DNA from: a virus
Strand: one strand, 5' to 3'
Virus record (IMG/VR): IMGVR_UViG_3300037493_002258
Span: 1-20,888 of that record
DNA length: 20,888 bases
Shown: positions 1,538 to 15,276 of the stretch, in pieces
How the letters are laid out: each line of letters starts with the position of its first letter
How positions within the stretch are numbered: position 1 is the first letter of the stretch
Made by a program: the position numbers and the translations under genes
The notes under the pieces: generated by a model
Told to the model about the DNA's origin: nothing
Database searches by the model: none
What the model saw: only the letters and a program-made list of their open reading frames with translations

Positions 1538-3391
1538 TTAGCTGATTCGTTGTGCTCGGATATAGCTGGGCGGGTTGAGTGTAGGTGATGATCCAACTCC
1601 TGCCGTGCGTTGCGCCCATTGAACGACTAGGTTGCCTGCTACTGTCACGTTAAGAGTGCCGTGGCGCAGGGTAGCGGAAGAGTTTGCACCAAATAGAATT
1701 TCAGCATCAACGGCATTTGCTGCTCTTGTCGTTGGGTATGTGGTCGATGCCGCAGCGCCGTTTTGTGAGTTATAGGTCTGCGCTCCACTGAAAGTGCCGG
1801 TGCCAGTGAATGCAAGTTTTTGCCGTGTTCCTACGGTTACAAATAAAGCGCCACCGCTCACGACGATAAGTGATTCGATATGATAGAGTCCGATCTCTAG
1901 CGCGAGGGTCAGGGTCGCAGACGTCTTGAGCGTCGTGGTGTTATCATTGCCTGCCTCATCCGCGACAAGTTGCGCCGAGAGTCGCCGCCCGCCGCGCCCG
2001 ATAAGGTCGGTGAGCGTAATTAAGCTCGTCGCCGCTGGCGTACCTGTGCCTGCTGATGTCGGGCGGGTCGTGCTGCTGAACGCGTGCGCTCCGGTGTGCG
2101 TCTCCGCGTCGATCATTGCGACTGTTCCAGCCTTGTTGGGGAATTCGATTGCGCGGTCTGCTGTCGGGCTGTGAGAGAGTGTGGTCGTGTAGGTGCCGTT
2201 GGAGAGTTTGAATGTCGAGCGTGATTGGATATAAGCGTTGGCTGCGGCTGTGAATATGTGGGCTGCTGCCCCGACTGTGTATATGTTGGCTTCAGTTCCG
2301 GTTGTGAAGATTTCAGCTGAATTTCCAGATGTGCCTATGGAAGCTAATTCTCCAGATGTAGAGATTCGGCCTTCTTGTCCGGTTGTAGAGATTGTTGCAA
2401 TGTCTCCTACTGTGGAGATGCTGGCGTTGGCTCCAAGTGTGGAGATGCTGGCGTTGGCTCCAAGTGTGGAGATGCTGGCGTCAGCTCCGCTTGTGGAAAT
2501 GATGGCGTTGGCTCCGCTTGTGGAGATTCCTGCATACTGTCCGCTTGTGAAGATGCTGGCGTTGGCTCCCTGTGTGTAGATGGTGGCGTTGGCTCCGGCT
2601 GTGTAGATGTTGGCGTCCGATCCGAGTGTGTAGATGATGCCGGTGGCTCCGCCTGTGCCGATGCTAGCACTGGCTCCAGTCGTAGAGATTGCCCCGCTCG
2701 ATGTGACCGATGATGCACCGACGGCTGCGAAGTTCGATCCGCCTGTTGCATCCCGCAGGGCAAGTGTGTTCGCGGTGGCTGCGGTAGCCCCAGCCGTTGC
2801 CCCGCTGACTGCGGTGCCGTTCGCCGAAATGAATCCGGTCAGGTTCGATGAGGTCGAGGTCGTGACGCTGTTCGGGCCTGTCTCGCCTTTGTCGCCAGTC
2901 TGGTAGAAATCGAAGGTGACGATCTCGTTAGCAGCAAATGCCGAGCCGGAAACGTATGTCCCGTTGATGTGGTGGTGGTTGCCCTCGTCGGTGACGCTGG
3001 TAACAAGGAAGTTAAAATGGCTTGCATCCGCGTTGCTGTTGGATCGAATGACAACCCGCGCTTTGATGGTCGATGTGGAGTCGTCAATCAAAGACAATAG
3101 TGCGCTGGTATTGCTCCCATCGAAATCAGTATCACGGATTGAAATGCGTGTCACCGCACTCAAGGTCGAGCTGTTGAATTTGAGGTGACCGGGACTCGGT
3201 GCGCCTGCGCCCGTCTGGTCGTCGAAGGTGTATTTCAGCCCGGCACGGTCGCCTTGTGCTCCGGTGGCGCCAGTGGCTCCGGCGGGGCCGCGTGAGCCGG
3301 TGCTTACCGAGTAACTGGTCGATCCTTCGCCGGTGATGACTGTCACCTGTGTGGAGCCTTGACCGGCATTTACTGTAACGTTTGTTGCCAT
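1538..3391 (-). CDS. Tail fibre with collagen-like stretches and 9-residue repeats
   Basis: A 617-aa fibre protein, probably the host-binding or decorating fibre. Visible parts in order: a beta-rich N-terminus (1-31); a collagen-like Gly-X-Y run (about 32-48, GSRGPAGATGATGAQGD); a beta-rich domain (about 50-165); a second short collagen-like piece (167-173); an Ala/Thr/Ser linker; seventeen tandem 9-residue repeats (234-386, pattern x-I-x-T-x-G-x-x-A); and a C-terminal domain ending VVQWAQRTAG...SYIRAQRIS, typical of phage fibre ends. Short Gly-X-Y runs and regular nonapeptide repeats suit a trimeric shaft. The ATG overlaps the stop of the upstream 121-aa gene by one base (TAATG). Fibre identity is well supported; the receptor cannot be read from sequence. 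Confidence 0.88.
   Translation of the reverse strand: MATNVTVNAGQGSTQVTVITGEGSTSYSVSTGSRGPAGATGATGAQGDRAGLKYTFDDQTGAGAPSPGHLKFNSSTLSAVTRISIRDTDFDGSNTSALLSLIDDSTSTIKARVVIRSNSNADASHFNFLVTSVTDEGNHHHINGTYVSGSAFAANEIVTFDFYQTGDKGETGPNSVTTSTSSNLTGFISANGTAVSGATAGATAATANTLALRDATGGSNFAAVGASSVTSSGAISTTGASASIGTGGATGIIYTLGSDANIYTAGANATIYTQGANASIFTSGQYAGISTSGANAIISTSGADASISTLGANASISTLGANASISTVGDIATISTTGQEGRISTSGELASIGTSGNSAEIFTTGTEANIYTVGAAAHIFTAAANAYIQSRSTFKLSNGTYTTTLSHSPTADRAIEFPNKAGTVAMIDAETHTGAHAFSSTTRPTSAGTGTPAATSLITLTDLIGRGGRRLSAQLVADEAGNDNTTTLKTSATLTLALEIGLYHIESLIVVSGGALFVTVGTRQKLAFTGTGTFSGAQTYNSQNGAAASTTYPTTRAANAVDAEILFGANSSATLRHGTLNVTVAGNLVVQWAQRTAGVGSSPTLNPPSYIRAQRIS
2234..2692 (-). repeat. Seventeen in-frame 27-nt tandem repeats in the tail fibre
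   Basis: Period is 27 nt, coding for nine residues of pattern x-I-(S/Y/F)-T-x-G-x-x-A, seventeen units covering fibre residues 234-386. Most units have diverged in DNA, but two adjacent ones (2411-2437 and 2438-2464) are identical over 27 nt and the next shares its first 16 bases, a sign of recent duplication. All gains or losses of a unit stay in frame. Confidence 0.9.
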
Positions 3392-9758: not shown

Positions 9759-10507
9759 GCTTTGTCTTTTTTGTCGATGGCTGCGAGTGTTTTTCGGTAA
9801 TAGGTTACGGTCTTCTTTAGTCCGAACTGAATTGATTTAGTGATGCCTGAGCTTTGCAGGACATGACTGTTGCCCGAATACGCGAGATTGTTTGTGATTC
9901 CTGCCACTGGTTTCCATCCCATGACCGGCTTTTTAGCATTTCCGAAACGCTTGTGCTTTTGAGTGTAGCTCAGAAAGTTTTTGCCGATGCTCATTTTTTC
10001 TGTTCCGGTCTGGGCGCGAGCGATCTCCATGCCTGCTCCAAGCCATGCGCCTTTTGCCATACCAGCTCTAGCTAACCTGATCTTCATGGCTGCAGTAAAC
10101 GTCTTGATGTCGCAGACCATTTTTTCGGAACGTGCCAATTCCGGGGTGCGAGCATTGCGCTTCGTTCGGTTTAACTCGATCCAATCGTTGACAGCTTGAT
10201 GGTCAGTCAGCGCACGGCGTGATTGAACTCCGTAGGTGCTTCCTTGATTTGTGGCCGAGTAACCGCGACCGCGTGTTTTCTCCAGCTTTTCGACAACCAG
10301 AAGCACATTGTATGCGTCCCTAAATATCGCACCTTCCTGTTTGATTCGGGTTTTTACCTTGCCGAATACTTGAGTTTCAAACGCCAGTTCGCGACAGACC
10401 TGAATGCTCCACCGAATCACTGCTTGCGCGTTAGTTTCGCCGAGTCGATTGGCAAAACGCTTCAAGCTGCGTTCAAGTTTTGGCTGATCTATTTCCGCTT
10501 TAATCAT
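9755..10507 (-). CDS. Minor tail or head-tail protein (Z-like)
   Basis: The ATG at 10507 (MIKAEIDQPKLERSLKRF) overlaps the stop of the adaptor gene as ATGA, so I choose it over the longer open frame from 10576. The 250-aa product is basic. The N-terminal part is a helix with KLERSLKRFANRLGETNAQA, like the start of HK97 gp10/lambda Z proteins. A Gly/Ser-rich loop follows (RGRGYSATNQGSTYGVQ), then a central helix with the Ala/Gly-rich AGMAKGAWLGAGMEIARAQ and a Lys-rich C-terminus. Z-type proteins act in tail completion before joining to heads. Gene order supports the call; at 250 aa it is longer than HK97 gp10 and closer to lambda Z. Sequence similarity itself is only suggestive. Confidence 0.68.
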   Translation of the reverse strand: MIKAEIDQPKLERSLKRFANRLGETNAQAVIRWSIQVCRELAFETQVFGKVKTRIKQEGAIFRDAYNVLLVVEKLEKTRGRGYSATNQGSTYGVQSRRALTDHQAVNDWIELNRTKRNARTPELARSEKMVCDIKTFTAAMKIRLARAGMAKGAWLGAGMEIARAQTGTEKMSIGKNFLSYTQKHKRFGNAKKPVMGWKPVAGITNNLAYSGNSHVLQSSGITKSIQFGLKKTVTYYRKTLAAIDKKDKA

Positions 10508-10815
10508 GCCTTGTGGATTTCCTCCAATGTGATCGTGGTAAAGCTGCCTCCTTTTCGGATTCCTTCTACCCTCCATTGCTCTGAGCGTGCTGTGGCGAGC
10601 TTTTTAAGTAAGACGCCTGATGGTAGATCCGATGTTTTGCAGACAGCACTGAGGCGCTTTGTAGGCTCAAAGCCGACCTCGCCAAATGTCTTTGCCTCGT
10701 CTGCTTCGGCGAGGATGCAGGAAATAGCCGTGCCGTTGATGGTTACTGACTCAGCTCCGATCATAGCGAATGACTGCGTGGCTGCCGCTAGAGCTTGTGC
10801 TGATACGATGGACAT
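10504..10815 (-). CDS. Head-tail adaptor (FII-like)
   Basis: A 103-aa protein. An N-terminal helix (SAQALAAATQSFAMIGAES) is followed by strands VTINGTAISCILAEAD and a C-terminal strand region (WRVEGIRKGGSFTTITLEEI). Lambda FII has the same size and order: a helix, a TITSG-type strand pair, and a closing strand with W-x-V. Such proteins sit on the connector and form the site where the tail attaches. It has a good ribosome binding site (AAGGA, 7 nt before the ATG), and the start is 22 nt below the shared TTTGATTTTCGCC motif. Its stop overlaps the Z-like gene by ATGA. The call is from length, strand pattern and position between head and tail genes. Confidence 0.62.
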   Translation of the reverse strand: MSIVSAQALAAATQSFAMIGAESVTINGTAISCILAEADEAKTFGEVGFEPTKRLSAVCKTSDLPSGVLLKKLATARSEQWRVEGIRKGGSFTTITLEEIHKA

Positions 10816-10850: not shown

Positions 10851-11357
10851 TCAACCCTGCCAGCGGTCGAGGTCAGGAAAAAGACGCTTGATCTTGATGA
10901 AGTTGTTCGGACGGTAGAACTCATCCTTGTGGCGCAGACAGATGCCTTCTCCACCGCGTGCCACGATGTCGGTTTCCATCTCGTCAAGCTCGGCCTCGGT
11001 GTCAAGCGGTGCGTGACTGATGACGGTGCAGTGGGCGGGCAGCTTGAGCTTTTCGAGAGCTTTGATTCGGTCGGCGGTTGAAACGCGAAGGACGGCCATG
11101 TCGAAGATCATGAACCGAATCCCGCGCCAGTCACCGCCCTTGCGCTGCATTGCGGATTGAAGCTCGGCAAACGTGCCGTTGCCCATCCAAAGCTCGCCGT
11201 CGAGCCTAACTGCTGGCATTCCTGCCTTGAACCATGCGGGCGGGTTGAGCTTGTTGCCGTGGCGGGTCATGAACTCCGATCCTGTCCAGATTGCCCGCAC
11301 TCCGTCGAGCTTTTCGCTGGCGAGGTAGTCGGTTATGTTGTCGGGGATTTCGTTCAC
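10851..11357 (-). CDS. Minimal ATP-dependent DNA ligase (nucleotidyltransferase domain only)
   Basis: A 168-aa protein with the covalent nucleotidyltransferase motifs in order: motif I EKLDG with the adenylated Lys16, Ia TRHG (31-34), III LDGELW (52-57), IIIa FMIFD (82-86), IV GEGICLR (136-142) and V IKIKR (154-158). These enzymes seal nicks through an enzyme-AMP step. The protein ends ten residues after motif V, so the OB-fold domain and motif VI of ordinary ligases are absent. Very little precedes motif I. The start is GTG at 11357; the frame has a stop 41 nt upstream and no clear Shine-Dalgarno. It lies between a glycosyltransferase and the FII-like adaptor, an unusual place for a ligase. 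Motifs are convincing; activity on DNA ends without the OB domain is uncertain. Confidence 0.86.
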   Translation of the reverse strand: MNEIPDNITDYLASEKLDGVRAIWTGSEFMTRHGNKLNPPAWFKAGMPAVRLDGELWMGNGTFAELQSAMQRKGGDWRGIRFMIFDMAVLRVSTADRIKALEKLKLPAHCTVISHAPLDTEAELDEMETDIVARGGEGICLRHKDEFYRPNNFIKIKRLFPDLDRWQG

Positions 11358-11404: not shown

Positions 11405-12010
11405 TTATTTTTCAGGAGCCGCTGTCAGATCTCGGTCGTGCCGGTAGAAGTGCAGGATCTTCGGAATGTGGTAAGTCGTCTTTGCTCGCTTGCGTGCCTG
11501 TAACGACCAGACGCGATCCTCTCCGTAGTTTGTCTCTAAGAACTGGCAGCCTGCCACTGTGTCGCGTTTCCATGCGCAGACGTGCCACGCATCGCGCTGC
11601 GTAATTCCGCCAGGTATGAATGCACCGTCGCCTTGTCCGAGTCGGAAATGGACGGTTGATTCCAAACCGTTGTAGACTGCGTGTTGCTGAAACGTGATGA
11701 CATCTGCACCGCTGGCGGCAGAGGCCAGCAGCTCGGCGACGTAGGTGTCCGCAATGTCGTCATCATCGTCCACGAACGCGATGTATTGCCCGCGCGCGAT
11801 GTCGAGCAGTGCCTGCCGCTTCGCGCCGATGCTGCGGGTGCGGTTGTCACTGAGAATCAGATGCTCGACCTGCCCCGAAGTCCTCAGCGCGGAACTCCGA
11901 TCCTCGATGTGGGTTGGTAGGGCTTGAATCTGCTCCTCGATCCTCCACTGGAGGGCTTGCAGTTGTTTCTCGCGTCCCGGTATCGTCGGTGTCAGTATTG
12001 ATAGGATCAT
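11405..12010 (-). CDS. GT2-family glycosyltransferase
   Basis: A 201-aa GT-A fold transferase. It opens with the typical first strand and loop MILSILTPTIPGREKQL. Residues 50-75 carry the nucleotide-binding half (LILSDNRTRSIGAKRQALLD), and residues 78-85 (AFVDDDDD) the metal- and sugar-nucleotide-binding DXD-type motif. NYGEDRVWSLQ (161-171) supplies the acidic ED pair usual for the catalytic base region. No membrane segment, so it would act in the cytoplasm on a protein or soluble acceptor. The ATG at 12010 lies inside the preceding 85-codon ORF in another frame and has no strong Shine-Dalgarno. Together with the upstream multidomain protein it forms a sugar-transfer pair; donor and acceptor cannot be read from sequence. 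Confidence 0.85.
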   Translation of the reverse strand: MILSILTPTIPGREKQLQALQWRIEEQIQALPTHIEDRSSALRTSGQVEHLILSDNRTRSIGAKRQALLDIARGQYIAFVDDDDDIADTYVAELLASAASGADVITFQQHAVYNGLESTVHFRLGQGDGAFIPGGITQRDAWHVCAWKRDTVAGCQFLETNYGEDRVWSLQARKRAKTTYHIPKILHFYRHDRDLTAAPEK

Positions 12011-12104
12011 GTGGTTTGGTCTTTCTGAAAATTGCGTCGTAGTTGTTCCGGTATGCTGGCGCGTCTCCCAGCCTGTGCCAGTCGCCTTTGTGCGTCTTGC
12101 TCAT
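11847..12104 (-). CDS. Small 85-codon ORF overlapping the GT2 gene
   Basis: It starts at an ATG that overlaps the stop of the 727-aa gene (ATGA). Its first 30 residues (MSKTHKGDWHRLGDAPAYRN, then NYDAIFRK) look like a genuine short phage protein: basic, with a Y-R-x-N-Y-D-x-I-F pattern. Beyond that it runs 164 nt into the GT2 gene in a different frame. The C-terminal 50 residues are low-complexity (Thr, Asp, Ser, Arg rich), as expected of an overprinted frame. Either the whole 85-aa product is made, or the sequence once ended near residue 35 and lost its stop. No function assigned. Coupling supports translation of the beginning. Confidence 0.48.
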   Translation of the reverse strand: MSKTHKGDWHRLGDAPAYRNNYDAIFRKTKPHDPINTDTDDTGTRETTASPPVEDRGADSSPTNPHRGSEFRAEDFGAGRASDSQ

Positions 12105-14284
12105 GGCTTGATGTTGGTTCTGACCCAGCAGCGATTTACAATGTGGTAGGGGATGCCGGATTCCTTGACGGCTTTGAGCACGCTGGGGGTATCAATGTCA
12201 TGCCCGCCGAAGAAGCCATCCGGCTTTACCTTGGGCAGCCATGCCGCGATGTCGGCTTTCACGTTCTCATAATCATGCGCTGCGTCGATAAAGATGCCAT
12301 CGGCTGATTGGTCTGGCTGATGTTTCGATTCTGCTACGCTTTCGTTCCGGCATTTGGTGATCTTCCGGCTGCCGCAGTTTTCTCGGAACTCGTCCCAAAC
12401 GTCAACTTGCCCGGTATCCGGATCGCCCGCGAACGTATCAACGCAAATGAGGGTTGCTGATTTCTTGCCGATGTCGTCCAGCCGATCGCGCAGGTAGATT
12501 GCGCTTTTGCCCTTCCAACTGCCGACCTCGATAAACGTCCCGTCGGTGGGCAGGGTTACGGCCACATGATCGTAGACATCACGGAAGTCAAACCATCCGA
12601 GTATGTCGGCAGATACCTTTTGCCCGGCTATCAGTCGATCCAAGATGCCTTTGCCGATCTCGTATTTTTCCGGCGCATTGCTGCGGGCATAAGTCTCATC
12701 CATCTGAGCCTTCCCGAATGCCGGGTGCAGATGCTCAAAAGTGATCCGGTCGCGTGCGTCGATGACCACGCCGTCACGGAAGGCGCATTTAGAGAACCAG
12801 TTGTCGGAGAACATGCTAAAAAACTCAGGATGAAAAAGGTATCCCTGTTGATCGTAGCGGGCGCGGGTCAGGATCGCCATGCAGAGCAGGTCATCGGTGC
12901 GGTGTCCGTCGCTGATAGCGAGGACGGCGGGCTTGGACGTGTCGCCTAGTGCCTGCAAAATTGCAGTGTCCCATCCTTGGAAGGGTTCCCAATCGTCAGA
13001 AAGTTGCAATAAGACCTCGCCGCGTGAATGTTTTGCGCATTCGTTCCAAGCATTAACGGGGCCACCATTGCCGCGAACTAGGCAGTGACGAGTAACCATC
13101 AGCGGCATGGATTCGGGGTCGTCTGCATCAAGTCCAAAGATATGCTCAACCGCATCGGGGTTGTCTGCCATGCGAAGCCAATCGTTTTTGCACCTCCATG
13201 CTTTGCCAGCTCGACCGCGTGTCGCGTGAAGAAGGCTGATCTTCGCGCCGTGCATGATGAAATGGTTCATCTCTAACACGTCTGCCTCCTCGCCCCTGCG
13301 GTTTGCACGCAGAGCCATCGCACGCAGGCTTACGCCTAGTCTGCCGTAATACATGCGCCGCAGGTTCCAAGGAGGCTCTGGAGGTATCCTGAGCGCAAGC
13401 ATGGCCTCAGTCCAGCCAAGCGAGTCTTTCGGCGAGTTCATAAGGCAGGAAAGTCCAAGCTCTCCGTAGGCTTCTCTACGAGATGGGTCGGTGGAAAGTG
13501 CCTGGAGCAGAAGGTTGTGCTTTGTGTCTTGGTCGCCCGCCAGTCGAGCTAGTTGGAAGAGTGCCTCGTATCGTTCATTCTGTCCGGCCTCGGGCAGTTG
13601 TGCAAATTCCATCGCCTTCGGTATCGCCTCGGCGTTTCGATCTAGCGCGATCAGAGATTGAAAAACATGGAATTTTTGCGACACGGTGCGCTCGTCCTCT
13701 GGGATGCTCTCGAGGATGCGCAGGTTGCGCTCGTCCCGGCTGGCGTGGCGCTTGCCAGATGCATGAACGATCTCGGCTCCGTCAAAGCGCAGATGCTTTG
13801 TTCCTTCGTTGAATTTCAGACATTCATGAATCGGGTTTTCCCAGCGTGCAGATCCTCGTCTCCAGATGCGCTCCCGCCAGTTGACGACTCCATCCTCTGG
13901 CACAACGTAGCGCATCAGCACGCCGTCAATGTCCTCGGTGCTGATGTCCTCGACGAGCTGGCGGATCTGCGCGATTGAATCGGGCGTGATGACGTCGTCG
14001 GTGTCTGCCCACATGAGCCATTCACCCGTTGCCATCCGCAGAGCGGTGTTTCTAGCTGCTGCGAAGTCGTCAACGTGCGGCCAGTCGTGATCCGCTTGGT
14101 TGAAATACTCGTCAATGATGCAGTTGTGCTCTTGCGCAATGTCGAGCGTCCTGTCAGGATCTTGATTGCCGATTGCCCGAACCACAATGATCTCGTCGGC
14201 GAGATACTCGAAATGATCGAGGAAGCGGGTGATGTAGTTTTCCGCGTTGCCGACAATTACGCACAGGCTCAGTTTCTTTTTCAT
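12101..14284 (-). CDS. Multidomain glycosyltransferase-glycosyltransferase-methyltransferase protein
   Basis: A 727-aa cytoplasmic protein with three enzyme-like parts. Residues 1-180 are a GT2 domain: LSLCVIVGNAENYITRFLDH, then WADTDD with the DXD-type motif at 94-97, then WENPIHECLKF. Residues about 185-335 form a helical, TPR-like linker. Residues 348-540 resemble a second GT-A domain: LLHATRGRAGKAW, DADD at 386-389, and LSDDWEPFQGWD at 428-439. Residues 582-727 are a class I methyltransferase of the Methyltransf_24 type: FIEVGSWKGKSA is the SAM-binding loop, and IFIDAAHDYENV and GGHD follow. Such a protein could add sugars and methylate one. It starts 42 nt after the capsid terminator. 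First GT and methyltransferase calls are strong; the second GT is weaker, and the target unknown. Confidence 0.85.
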   Translation of the reverse strand: MKKKLSLCVIVGNAENYITRFLDHFEYLADEIIVVRAIGNQDPDRTLDIAQEHNCIIDEYFNQADHDWPHVDDFAAARNTALRMATGEWLMWADTDDVITPDSIAQIRQLVEDISTEDIDGVLMRYVVPEDGVVNWRERIWRRGSARWENPIHECLKFNEGTKHLRFDGAEIVHASGKRHASRDERNLRILESIPEDERTVSQKFHVFQSLIALDRNAEAIPKAMEFAQLPEAGQNERYEALFQLARLAGDQDTKHNLLLQALSTDPSRREAYGELGLSCLMNSPKDSLGWTEAMLALRIPPEPPWNLRRMYYGRLGVSLRAMALRANRRGEEADVLEMNHFIMHGAKISLLHATRGRAGKAWRCKNDWLRMADNPDAVEHIFGLDADDPESMPLMVTRHCLVRGNGGPVNAWNECAKHSRGEVLLQLSDDWEPFQGWDTAILQALGDTSKPAVLAISDGHRTDDLLCMAILTRARYDQQGYLFHPEFFSMFSDNWFSKCAFRDGVVIDARDRITFEHLHPAFGKAQMDETYARSNAPEKYEIGKGILDRLIAGQKVSADILGWFDFRDVYDHVAVTLPTDGTFIEVGSWKGKSAIYLRDRLDDIGKKSATLICVDTFAGDPDTGQVDVWDEFRENCGSRKITKCRNESVAESKHQPDQSADGIFIDAAHDYENVKADIAAWLPKVKPDGFFGGHDIDTPSVLKAVKESGIPYHIVNRCWVRTNIKP

Positions 14285-14382: not shown

Positions 14383-15276
14383 TTATGGCTTCGTGCCGAA
14401 TGCAAGTCCGAGGGTGAGTCCGGTCGCGGTGCCGTAGAGGCACTCAAAGGCTCCGAACATTTGACCAGTTGCTGTGTTGAACGAGCGGCGATAGCCCATG
14501 ACGATGCCGGATGGATCGGCAGCGCGTTCCACGGAGAGATACTCAGCACCGGCTTGTGGCTCAAGGTAGCGCATGGCGACCGAGATAGCGTCCGGGTGAG
14601 CAGCGAAGCATACGAGGGAGGTGGCTGCGGTGGGCAGGATGTTTGTCTCGTAGGTTGGGAATCCGACCAGCTGACCGAGCGTGCCTTGACGAGCAGCTTG
14701 GTTGTCGCCGATGGCGTAGGCTTGAAGCACGTTGGTGGATCCAAGGAGCGAGGCACCAACAACAGTGTTGTGGATGAAAGCGCAAACGCCAGGATCGACA
14801 TCTACGTTCCGACCAGCGAGGACAGAGCGAAGCGAGATGAGCTGGGCGAGTCCATAGTTGGCTTCTGCAGTCGTCACCGATGCGGCTCCGAAGTTGGTGG
14901 TGGTGATGAGCTTCCAGATGTTTTCCAGAACCTTCTGACCGAGGGCGCGACCAGCTTGCAGCGCGAGTTCGTCAAAACGTGCGGCAGAGCTGTTGGCGTT
15001 CTGCAGGTCGGTGATGTCGAAGGTGACGATGTTGTGCTGGTTCAGGTTGACGGTGTTGTGAGTCACCGCACCGCCGCCTGTTTGATAGTTGGCAGTGGAT
15101 GCGTTGAAAGTGGTTGCGGTCATCGCGGAGATGAACGGAACGACAATCGCGTCACCTTTGCCGCGTGCGCTGTCATCCAGCGAGCTAGAAAATGCGCGAA
15201 GTGGAGCGAGCTTGGCAGTGAAGGCTTTGAGTGCCTCTTGTGCGAAGATGGTATCGTTGAAGGATAGAGTGGCCAT
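14383..15276 (-). CDS. Major capsid protein (HK97-fold candidate)
   Basis: A 297-aa protein in the fixed position after the protease/scaffold gene. The N-terminal helix (FNDTIFAQEALKAFTAKLAP) is followed by a strand-rich region (GDAIVVPFISAMTATTFNAS) resembling the N-arm/E-loop. A long P-domain-like helix comes next (FDELALQAGRALGQKVLENIW), then A-domain-like segments (GVCAFIHNTVVGASLLG, AIGDNQAARQGTLGQLVGF) and a C-terminal strand end (GLTLGLAFGTKP). The order (E-loop, spine helix, VGASLLG-type helix, LGxLxGFPxY) is that of small HK97-fold capsids. The ATG at 15276 lies 26 nt after the protease stop and has no Shine-Dalgarno but an A-rich leader, unusual for the most abundant virion protein. 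No separate decoration protein gene is seen beside it. Confidence 0.85.
   Translation of the reverse strand: MATLSFNDTIFAQEALKAFTAKLAPLRAFSSSLDDSARGKGDAIVVPFISAMTATTFNASTANYQTGGGAVTHNTVNLNQHNIVTFDITDLQNANSSAARFDELALQAGRALGQKVLENIWKLITTTNFGAASVTTAEANYGLAQLISLRSVLAGRNVDVDPGVCAFIHNTVVGASLLGSTNVLQAYAIGDNQAARQGTLGQLVGFPTYETNILPTAATSLVCFAAHPDAISVAMRYLEPQAGAEYLSVERAADPSGIVMGYRRSFNTATGQMFGAFECLYGTATGLTLGLAFGTKP

Follow-up and report, generated by a model that had tools for sequence, protein, structure and literature searches.

The window, that is, the whole stretch of DNA analysed here, is an IMG/VR virus record of 20,888 nt. In the direction of transcription, the genes for the terminase large subunit, portal, ClpP-type head protease and major capsid protein precede a fusion gene, which is followed by a small ORF, a stand-alone glycosyltransferase (GT), a ligase-like gene and then the head-tail and tail genes. 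The fusion gene lies on the minus strand from 14284 to 12101 and encodes a protein of 727 aa. A preliminary description of this DNA had assigned 12101-14284 to one 727-aa chain directly after the major capsid gene. Both points were borne out, with the strand being minus; a plus-strand reading of the interval was rejected due to stop codons, and the adjoining upstream gene (14383-15276, minus strand), encoding the proposed acceptor, matches phrog_283 (major head protein, 3.3e-16) and phrog_267. The stand-alone GT, denoted as GT3 (P0002, 201 aa; 11405-12010, minus strand; phrog_14775, 6e-29), is the third GT of the locus and was absent from the preliminary description. The small ORF of 85 aa (11847-12104, minus strand) has an ATG overlapping the stop codon of the fusion gene (ATGA) and also overlaps the start of GT3. 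Most of the relatives listed have a small ORF with the same -1 overlap, and a motif similar to GKGD..P.....F..NYD.IF is common to several of them. Family searches with the 85-aa ORF gave no match, and it may be a translational-coupling element or a small protein.

Two further genes of the window were observed in passing. In the head-tail region, a 168-aa ATP-dependent DNA-ligase-like protein (10851-11357, minus strand) comprises the nucleotidyltransferase part only, with an EKLDG motif; the position of its gene varies in relatives (L002, L003 and L162), and the gene is almost deleted in L001. The product of the gene at 1538-3391 (minus strand) is likely a tail-fibre protein; it contains a collagen-like stretch and a long series of near-repeats such as ISTLGANASISTLGANAS, which probably form a repetitive beta structure.

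The AlphaFold2 model of the 727-aa protein, based on a 57-sequence alignment, had a mean pLDDT of 91.9 and a pTM of 0.85; it replaced an earlier 13-sequence model that was weak in the second GT (pLDDT <50 at residues 485-537). Along the minus strand, the protein is divided into a GT-A/GT2 catalytic domain of the SunS/ThuS/GmaR type (domain 1a, residues 1-180, 13745-14284), a helical, TPR-like domain following it (domain 1b, residues 181-345, 13250-13744), a second GT-A glycosyltransferase (domain 2, residues 346-555, 12620-13249), and a SAM-dependent methyltransferase (MT) resembling Methyltransf_24 and TylF (domain 3, residues 556-727 plus the stop codon, 12101-12619). Each of the three domains is backed by a confident predicted fold and by conserved catalytic motifs, and the residues for metal binding and catalysis in both GTs do not vary among the 57 diverse sequences. 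Considering this invariance together with the relatives found in IMG/VR, the fusion protein is not a product of chance.

Domain 1a matches Pfam Glycos_transf_2 at residues 6-147 (E 6.5e-18), which confirms the GT2 domain of the preliminary description. A GT-A fold, a DxD-type metal motif and a conserved HE region are all present in domain 1, and the motifs D94-x-D96-D97 and H153-E154 are invariant in 57 of 57 sequences. When domain 1 was searched against the PDB using phmmer, GmaR (1.8e-10) and SunS (2e-5) were matched, and its model superimposed on ThuS (Z 21.5) and SunS (Z 20.9) over 266-274 residues. The SunS and ThuS alignments reach residue 287 and thus cover much of the helical domain, the helices of which span residues 181-344 in the model; TPR_19 was matched weakly in relatives. 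This region had been described as a helical linker. It is better regarded as the helical domain of a SunS/ThuS/GmaR-type GT, a type in which a helical (TPR-like) domain lies behind the catalytic domain. In sequence and predicted fold, domain 1 is nearest to enzymes that glycosylate peptides or proteins. The S-glycosyltransferases SunS and ThuS act on a bacteriocin peptide. GmaR acts on flagellin, which its TPR domain is proposed to recognise (PMC9638930), and domain 1b is the proposed acceptor-recognition part of the fusion protein. Although SunS, ThuS and Listeria GmaR share the fold of domain 1, they are single-GT proteins, whereas the window protein adds a second GT and an MT.

Domain 2 has a GT-A fold and an acidic metal motif, and S429-D430-D431, D494 and H518-x-H520 are invariant in the 57 sequences. 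The preliminary description had proposed a second GT-A-like domain here and suggested structure prediction of the middle region as a check. A GT-A fold was found at residues 346-555, where the model aligned with the fucosyltransferase WrtF (Z 17.9), GalNAc-T2 (Z 17.3) and RmlT (Z 17.3), which argues against a middle region lacking such a fold; residues 346-539 also match the glycosyltransferase family phrog_14945 (E 5.8e-19). A homologue of domain 2 from the same family, gp35 of Streptomyces phage Daubenski, is about 30% identical, but it is encoded by a small gene of its own, next to another GT and a nucleotidyltransferase and at a distance of several kb from the portal gene.

Domain 3 agrees with the Methyltransf_24-type domain previously named, with Pfam matches to Methyltransf_24 (residues 585-697, E 1.1e-16) and TylF (3.6e-6). 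It has the SAM-binding class-I fold with E-x-G-x-x-x-G and D-A-A-H-D-Y / G-H-D motifs, which are conserved in those of the 57 aligned sequences that have the domain. Compared with solved folds from about residue 540, it aligned with MeT1 (Z 19.8), SpnH (Z 18.2), MycF (Z 18.0) and NovP (Z 17.6), and the group including TylF gave Z 17.4-19.8. These nearest folds are O-methyltransferases, mostly acting on sugars, and domain 3 is predicted from them to be sugar O-methyltransferase-like. While MeT1, SpnH, MycF, NovP and TylF have the fold in common with domain 3, they function as separate enzymes in secondary metabolism or polysaccharide synthesis, with no GT fusion at a phage capsid locus. Domain 3 also matches phrog_2675, a family labelled as DNA methyltransferase, the halves of which match domain 2-like GTs and domain 3, respectively; the family therefore looks like a GT-MT fusion family whose name is apparently misleading.

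Judging from the sequences of the relatives, the methyl module is lost, swapped or replaced. GT-GT forms of about 550 aa lack it (L049, L060 and several of L122-L133), and L014 has, at the same C-terminal position, an unrelated methyltransferase that resembles Methyltransf_23 and falls just under the curated cut-off. In L026, the MT is 91% identical to that of the window, compared with only 57-64% for domains 1 and 2. Such loss, swapping and replacement would be expected of a cap that varies glycan chemistry.

The fusion protein has 310 relatives in IMG/VR, while no record of the INPHARED phage collection covers 80% of it or gives a full-length match. Loci were drawn from the best 80 matches per IMG/VR search (the best 80 of 310 for the fusion protein); they represent one collection with many fragments, their counts refer to contigs and not to independent events, and the searches share some loci. 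On this basis, the GT gene is preceded by a same-family capsid gene in 81 of 81 GT-anchored loci, mostly directly adjacent and in some cases split off by an insertion, and GT3 lies downstream in nearly all GT-anchored contigs of sufficient length. Of the contigs recovered with the capsid as anchor, 77 extend at least 200 nt downstream of it, and 76 of these have the GT gene; the exception, L098, ends within an insertion, and insertions of this type lie ahead of the GT gene in L051, L061 and L100.

Within the phage collection, Verrucomicrobia phage P8625 is the sole isolate whose capsid protein is related (about 25% identical), and its capsid locus has no GT at the corresponding place. Likewise, the cassette was found in 0 of 33 IMG/VR contigs with a P8625-type capsid, 26 of which have at least 2 kb downstream. 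Among these, L162-L166, apparently close relatives of each other, and L167 resemble the window in terminase (48-57% identical) and portal (53-55%) and also have the ligase-like gene, yet they carry the P8625-type capsid and a small gene where the cassette would be. Cassette carriers L017 and L025, in turn, have a backbone farther from that of the window (33-41% identical). Since the cassette is absent with the P8625-type capsid despite a similar backbone, it follows the capsid type and not the phage backbone. The small gene, of 69-122 aa, lies directly behind the P8625-type capsid gene in L162, L167-L169, L172 and L141; it gave no family match and could encode a decoration protein. As for the host, bacterial-genome matches were limited to three contigs in Verrucomicrobiota and Armatimonadota MAG bins, and P8625 infects a Puniceicoccales strain; these are too weak a basis, so we name no host for the window phage.

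Pairwise identities of the capsid protein and domain 1 were correlated in 26 non-redundant loci (Spearman 0.76, Mantel p 0.0005), and the value was again 0.76 in 47 loci and 0.75 when controlled for portal. For ClpP, whose gene adjoins the capsid gene equally on the upstream side, the correlation with capsid was 0.21/0.28 (0.21 in the 26 loci), and the bootstrap difference between the two correlations was 0.54 (0.30-0.79). In the 26 loci, capsid correlated with portal at 0.09, terminase at 0.07, domain 2 at 0.31, MT at 0.13 and GT3 at 0.29. Domain 2 and GT3 thus follow the capsid weakly (rho 0.29-0.40), and in the 47 loci the capsid-domain 2 correlation drops to -0.02 given domain 1. Within domain 1, the GT and helical parts each co-vary with the capsid (rho 0.66-0.68 for domain 1b), and the correlation falls abruptly at the border between domains 1 and 2. 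This sequence pattern fits domain 1 contacting the capsid protein, with domain 2, GT3 and MT acting on the growing glycan.

The preliminary description had suggested a dedicated virion glycosylation system with a head or tail protein as its substrate. A dedicated system is supported by the position of the gene beside the capsid gene in the relatives examined, its absence with the other capsid type and the co-inheritance of domain 1; as to the substrate, the linkage and co-inheritance favour the head, and the tail is less favoured. We consider, with a probability of roughly 0.7, that the product of the fusion gene is an enzyme for virion glycosylation whose dedicated target is the major capsid protein. 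As the gene for the three-part enzyme adjoins the capsid gene and is co-inherited with it, the heads of a large group of uncultivated phages probably bear small sugars with a methyl cap, added by the phages' own enzymes. The helical part of domain 1 would recognise the capsid protein and domain 1 would attach the first sugar to a side chain, domain 2 would add a second sugar, GT3 would probably extend the chain by a further one, and domain 3 would O-methylate the terminal sugar, thereby capping the glycan and varying the surface chemistry. Candidate advantages are shielding from proteases or non-productive binding, tuning of adsorption, and capsid stability. An S-linked, SunS-like cysteine acceptor was also considered, but the cysteines of the capsid protein are not kept in relatives such as L013 and L014; O-linkage thus seems likelier from the capsid sequences. 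When the capsid alignment was inspected for S/T-rich tails or inserts confined to the clade that accompanies the cassette, no single acceptor site stood out. None of the window proteins scanned was recognised as acting in sugar-nucleotide synthesis, so the donors would have to come from the host.

A stronger form of this proposal, which we regard as unlikely but worth stating, is a single-chain glycan assembly line in which domain 1 is co-adapted to the capsid, domain 2 extends and an exchangeable MT terminates the glycan. The modification would be obligatory for the capsid clade and would perhaps stand in, structurally or at the surface, for the small protein of P8625-type phages.

Several points count against capsid glycosylation. 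The SunS/ThuS relatives of domain 1 could in principle act on other acceptors, and the weak tracking of domain 2 and GT3, while expected for extension enzymes, would equally be expected for another acceptor or for more recombination. In a rival reading, the acceptor would be another virion protein, a tail tube or fibre, with the position in the head region being incidental. The mycobacteriophage tail tube is glycosylated as well (PMC12619734; PMC12363180), and the GT genes of Che8 lie near the genome end, among non-structural genes. However, the tail genes vary widely among cassette carriers and those of the window are often unmatched, whereas capsid and domain 1 stay matched; moreover, L162 lacks the cassette and has the P8625-type capsid, yet its head-tail and tail-tube-like genes resemble those of the window. 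We therefore view a tail acceptor as improbable.

There is also only a small chance that the enzymes alter a host surface polysaccharide or host protein, as in superinfection exclusion, serotype conversion or modification of flagellin or pilin. Domain 1 does resemble GmaR, a flagellin transferase, and WrtF and RmlT, with which domain 2 aligns, have cell-surface glycans as their targets, but the genes sit within the structural gene run, their link to one capsid clade is near-obligatory and independent of the backbone, and no obvious membrane segment was seen in the fusion protein by inspection. Breakpoint clustering is an alternative source of the capsid-domain 1 correlation: if recombination were concentrated at the ClpP/capsid and domain 1/2 borders, the capsid gene and domain 1 could be inherited together with no functional contact, the breakpoints merely flanking two parts that travel together. 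Clustered breakpoints would yield the same correlation, and GIY-YIG-like and repetitive insertions between capsid and GT in some loci point to an active spot. This explanation, however, requires the same boundary in many diverse contigs, while the catalytic residues are kept in all and the cassette is wholly absent with the other capsid type, so that the lack of any capsid-specific function seems similarly far from probable. Hypermodification of phage DNA is the least credible reading: glycosylation of DNA by phage GTs is known (cited in PMC12619734) and phrog_2675 bears its DNA methyltransferase label, but that label looks misleading, no nucleotide-hypermodification gene was recognised among the window proteins scanned, and the nearest folds are protein or peptide GTs for domain 1 and sugar O-methyltransferases for domain 3.

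Glycosylation of tailed-phage virions has been documented mainly in a few mycobacteriophages. Virion proteins are glycosylated in Che8, Corndog and Myrna, and the GTs described as essential are Che8 gp110 and Corndog gp38 (PMC12363180). Papers citing Freeman 2023 report that phage GTs glycosylate the capsid of Che8 (PMC12363180; PMC11256854), and Che8 gp108-gp110, Corndog gp38 and Myrna tie phage GTs to a glycosylated capsid and tail tube protein (PMC12363180, PMC11256854). At window-type loci, phage-encoded GTs are likewise genetically linked to a structural protein, and GT3 is 38% identical (E 8e-30) to the GT half of Che8 gp108, which belongs to a phage with proven glycosylated virions, although the essential Che8 GT named in PMC12363180 is gp110 and not gp108. 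The second half of gp108 matches the methyltransferase family phrog_6608, so that gp108 is a GT-MT fusion. Che8 differs from the window in having one GT per chain, an MT of another family and glycosylation genes away from the capsid locus, a PHROG scan of gp108-110 revealed no SunS/GmaR-type domain, and the phages and hosts are unrelated to those of the window.

In terms of layout, gp15-gp21 of the Omegavirus mycobacteriophage LittleE are similar to the window, with GT genes between the capsid and the head-tail connector; gp15 is a homologue of GT3 (38% identical) and gp17 is a Methyltransf_23-GT fusion with the MT at the N-terminus. The LittleE genes are, however, separate, include an extra kinase gene and lack a chain of two GTs plus MT. 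Capsid-linked GT clusters and GT/MT fusions therefore already exist, and the earlier statement that no example had been described holds, as far as searched, for the full domain order but not for simpler GT/MT fusions such as Che8 gp108 and LittleE gp17. In the papers searched, no chain was described that joins a protein-type GT to a second GT and an MT and is linked to one capsid clade across many contigs. The present analysis adds a large set of uncultivated phages in which a fused GT-GT-MT gene is linked to the capsid, together with comparative evidence on the acceptor protein and a natural contrast in which a similar backbone with another capsid type has no cassette. What a phage gains from head sugars outside animal immunity becomes an experimentally approachable question.

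Some loci showed additional genes around the GT gene. The insertions between capsid and GT gene in L051, L061, L098 and L100 encode highly repetitive proteins of the REANPEKYREAARK type, and those of L051, L061 and L100 also carry a 191-aa gene. A GIY-YIG-like gene lies between the capsid and GT genes in L021. L102 and L103 show a partial duplication at this recombination-prone spot: downstream of the capsid gene, about 80 residues from the GT1 N-terminus are present as a truncated copy and followed by other sequence, behind which L102 has a second GT1 start. In L075, a gene at 9896-10744 between the fusion gene and GT3 resembles, by eye, a C5-cytosine DNA methyltransferase.
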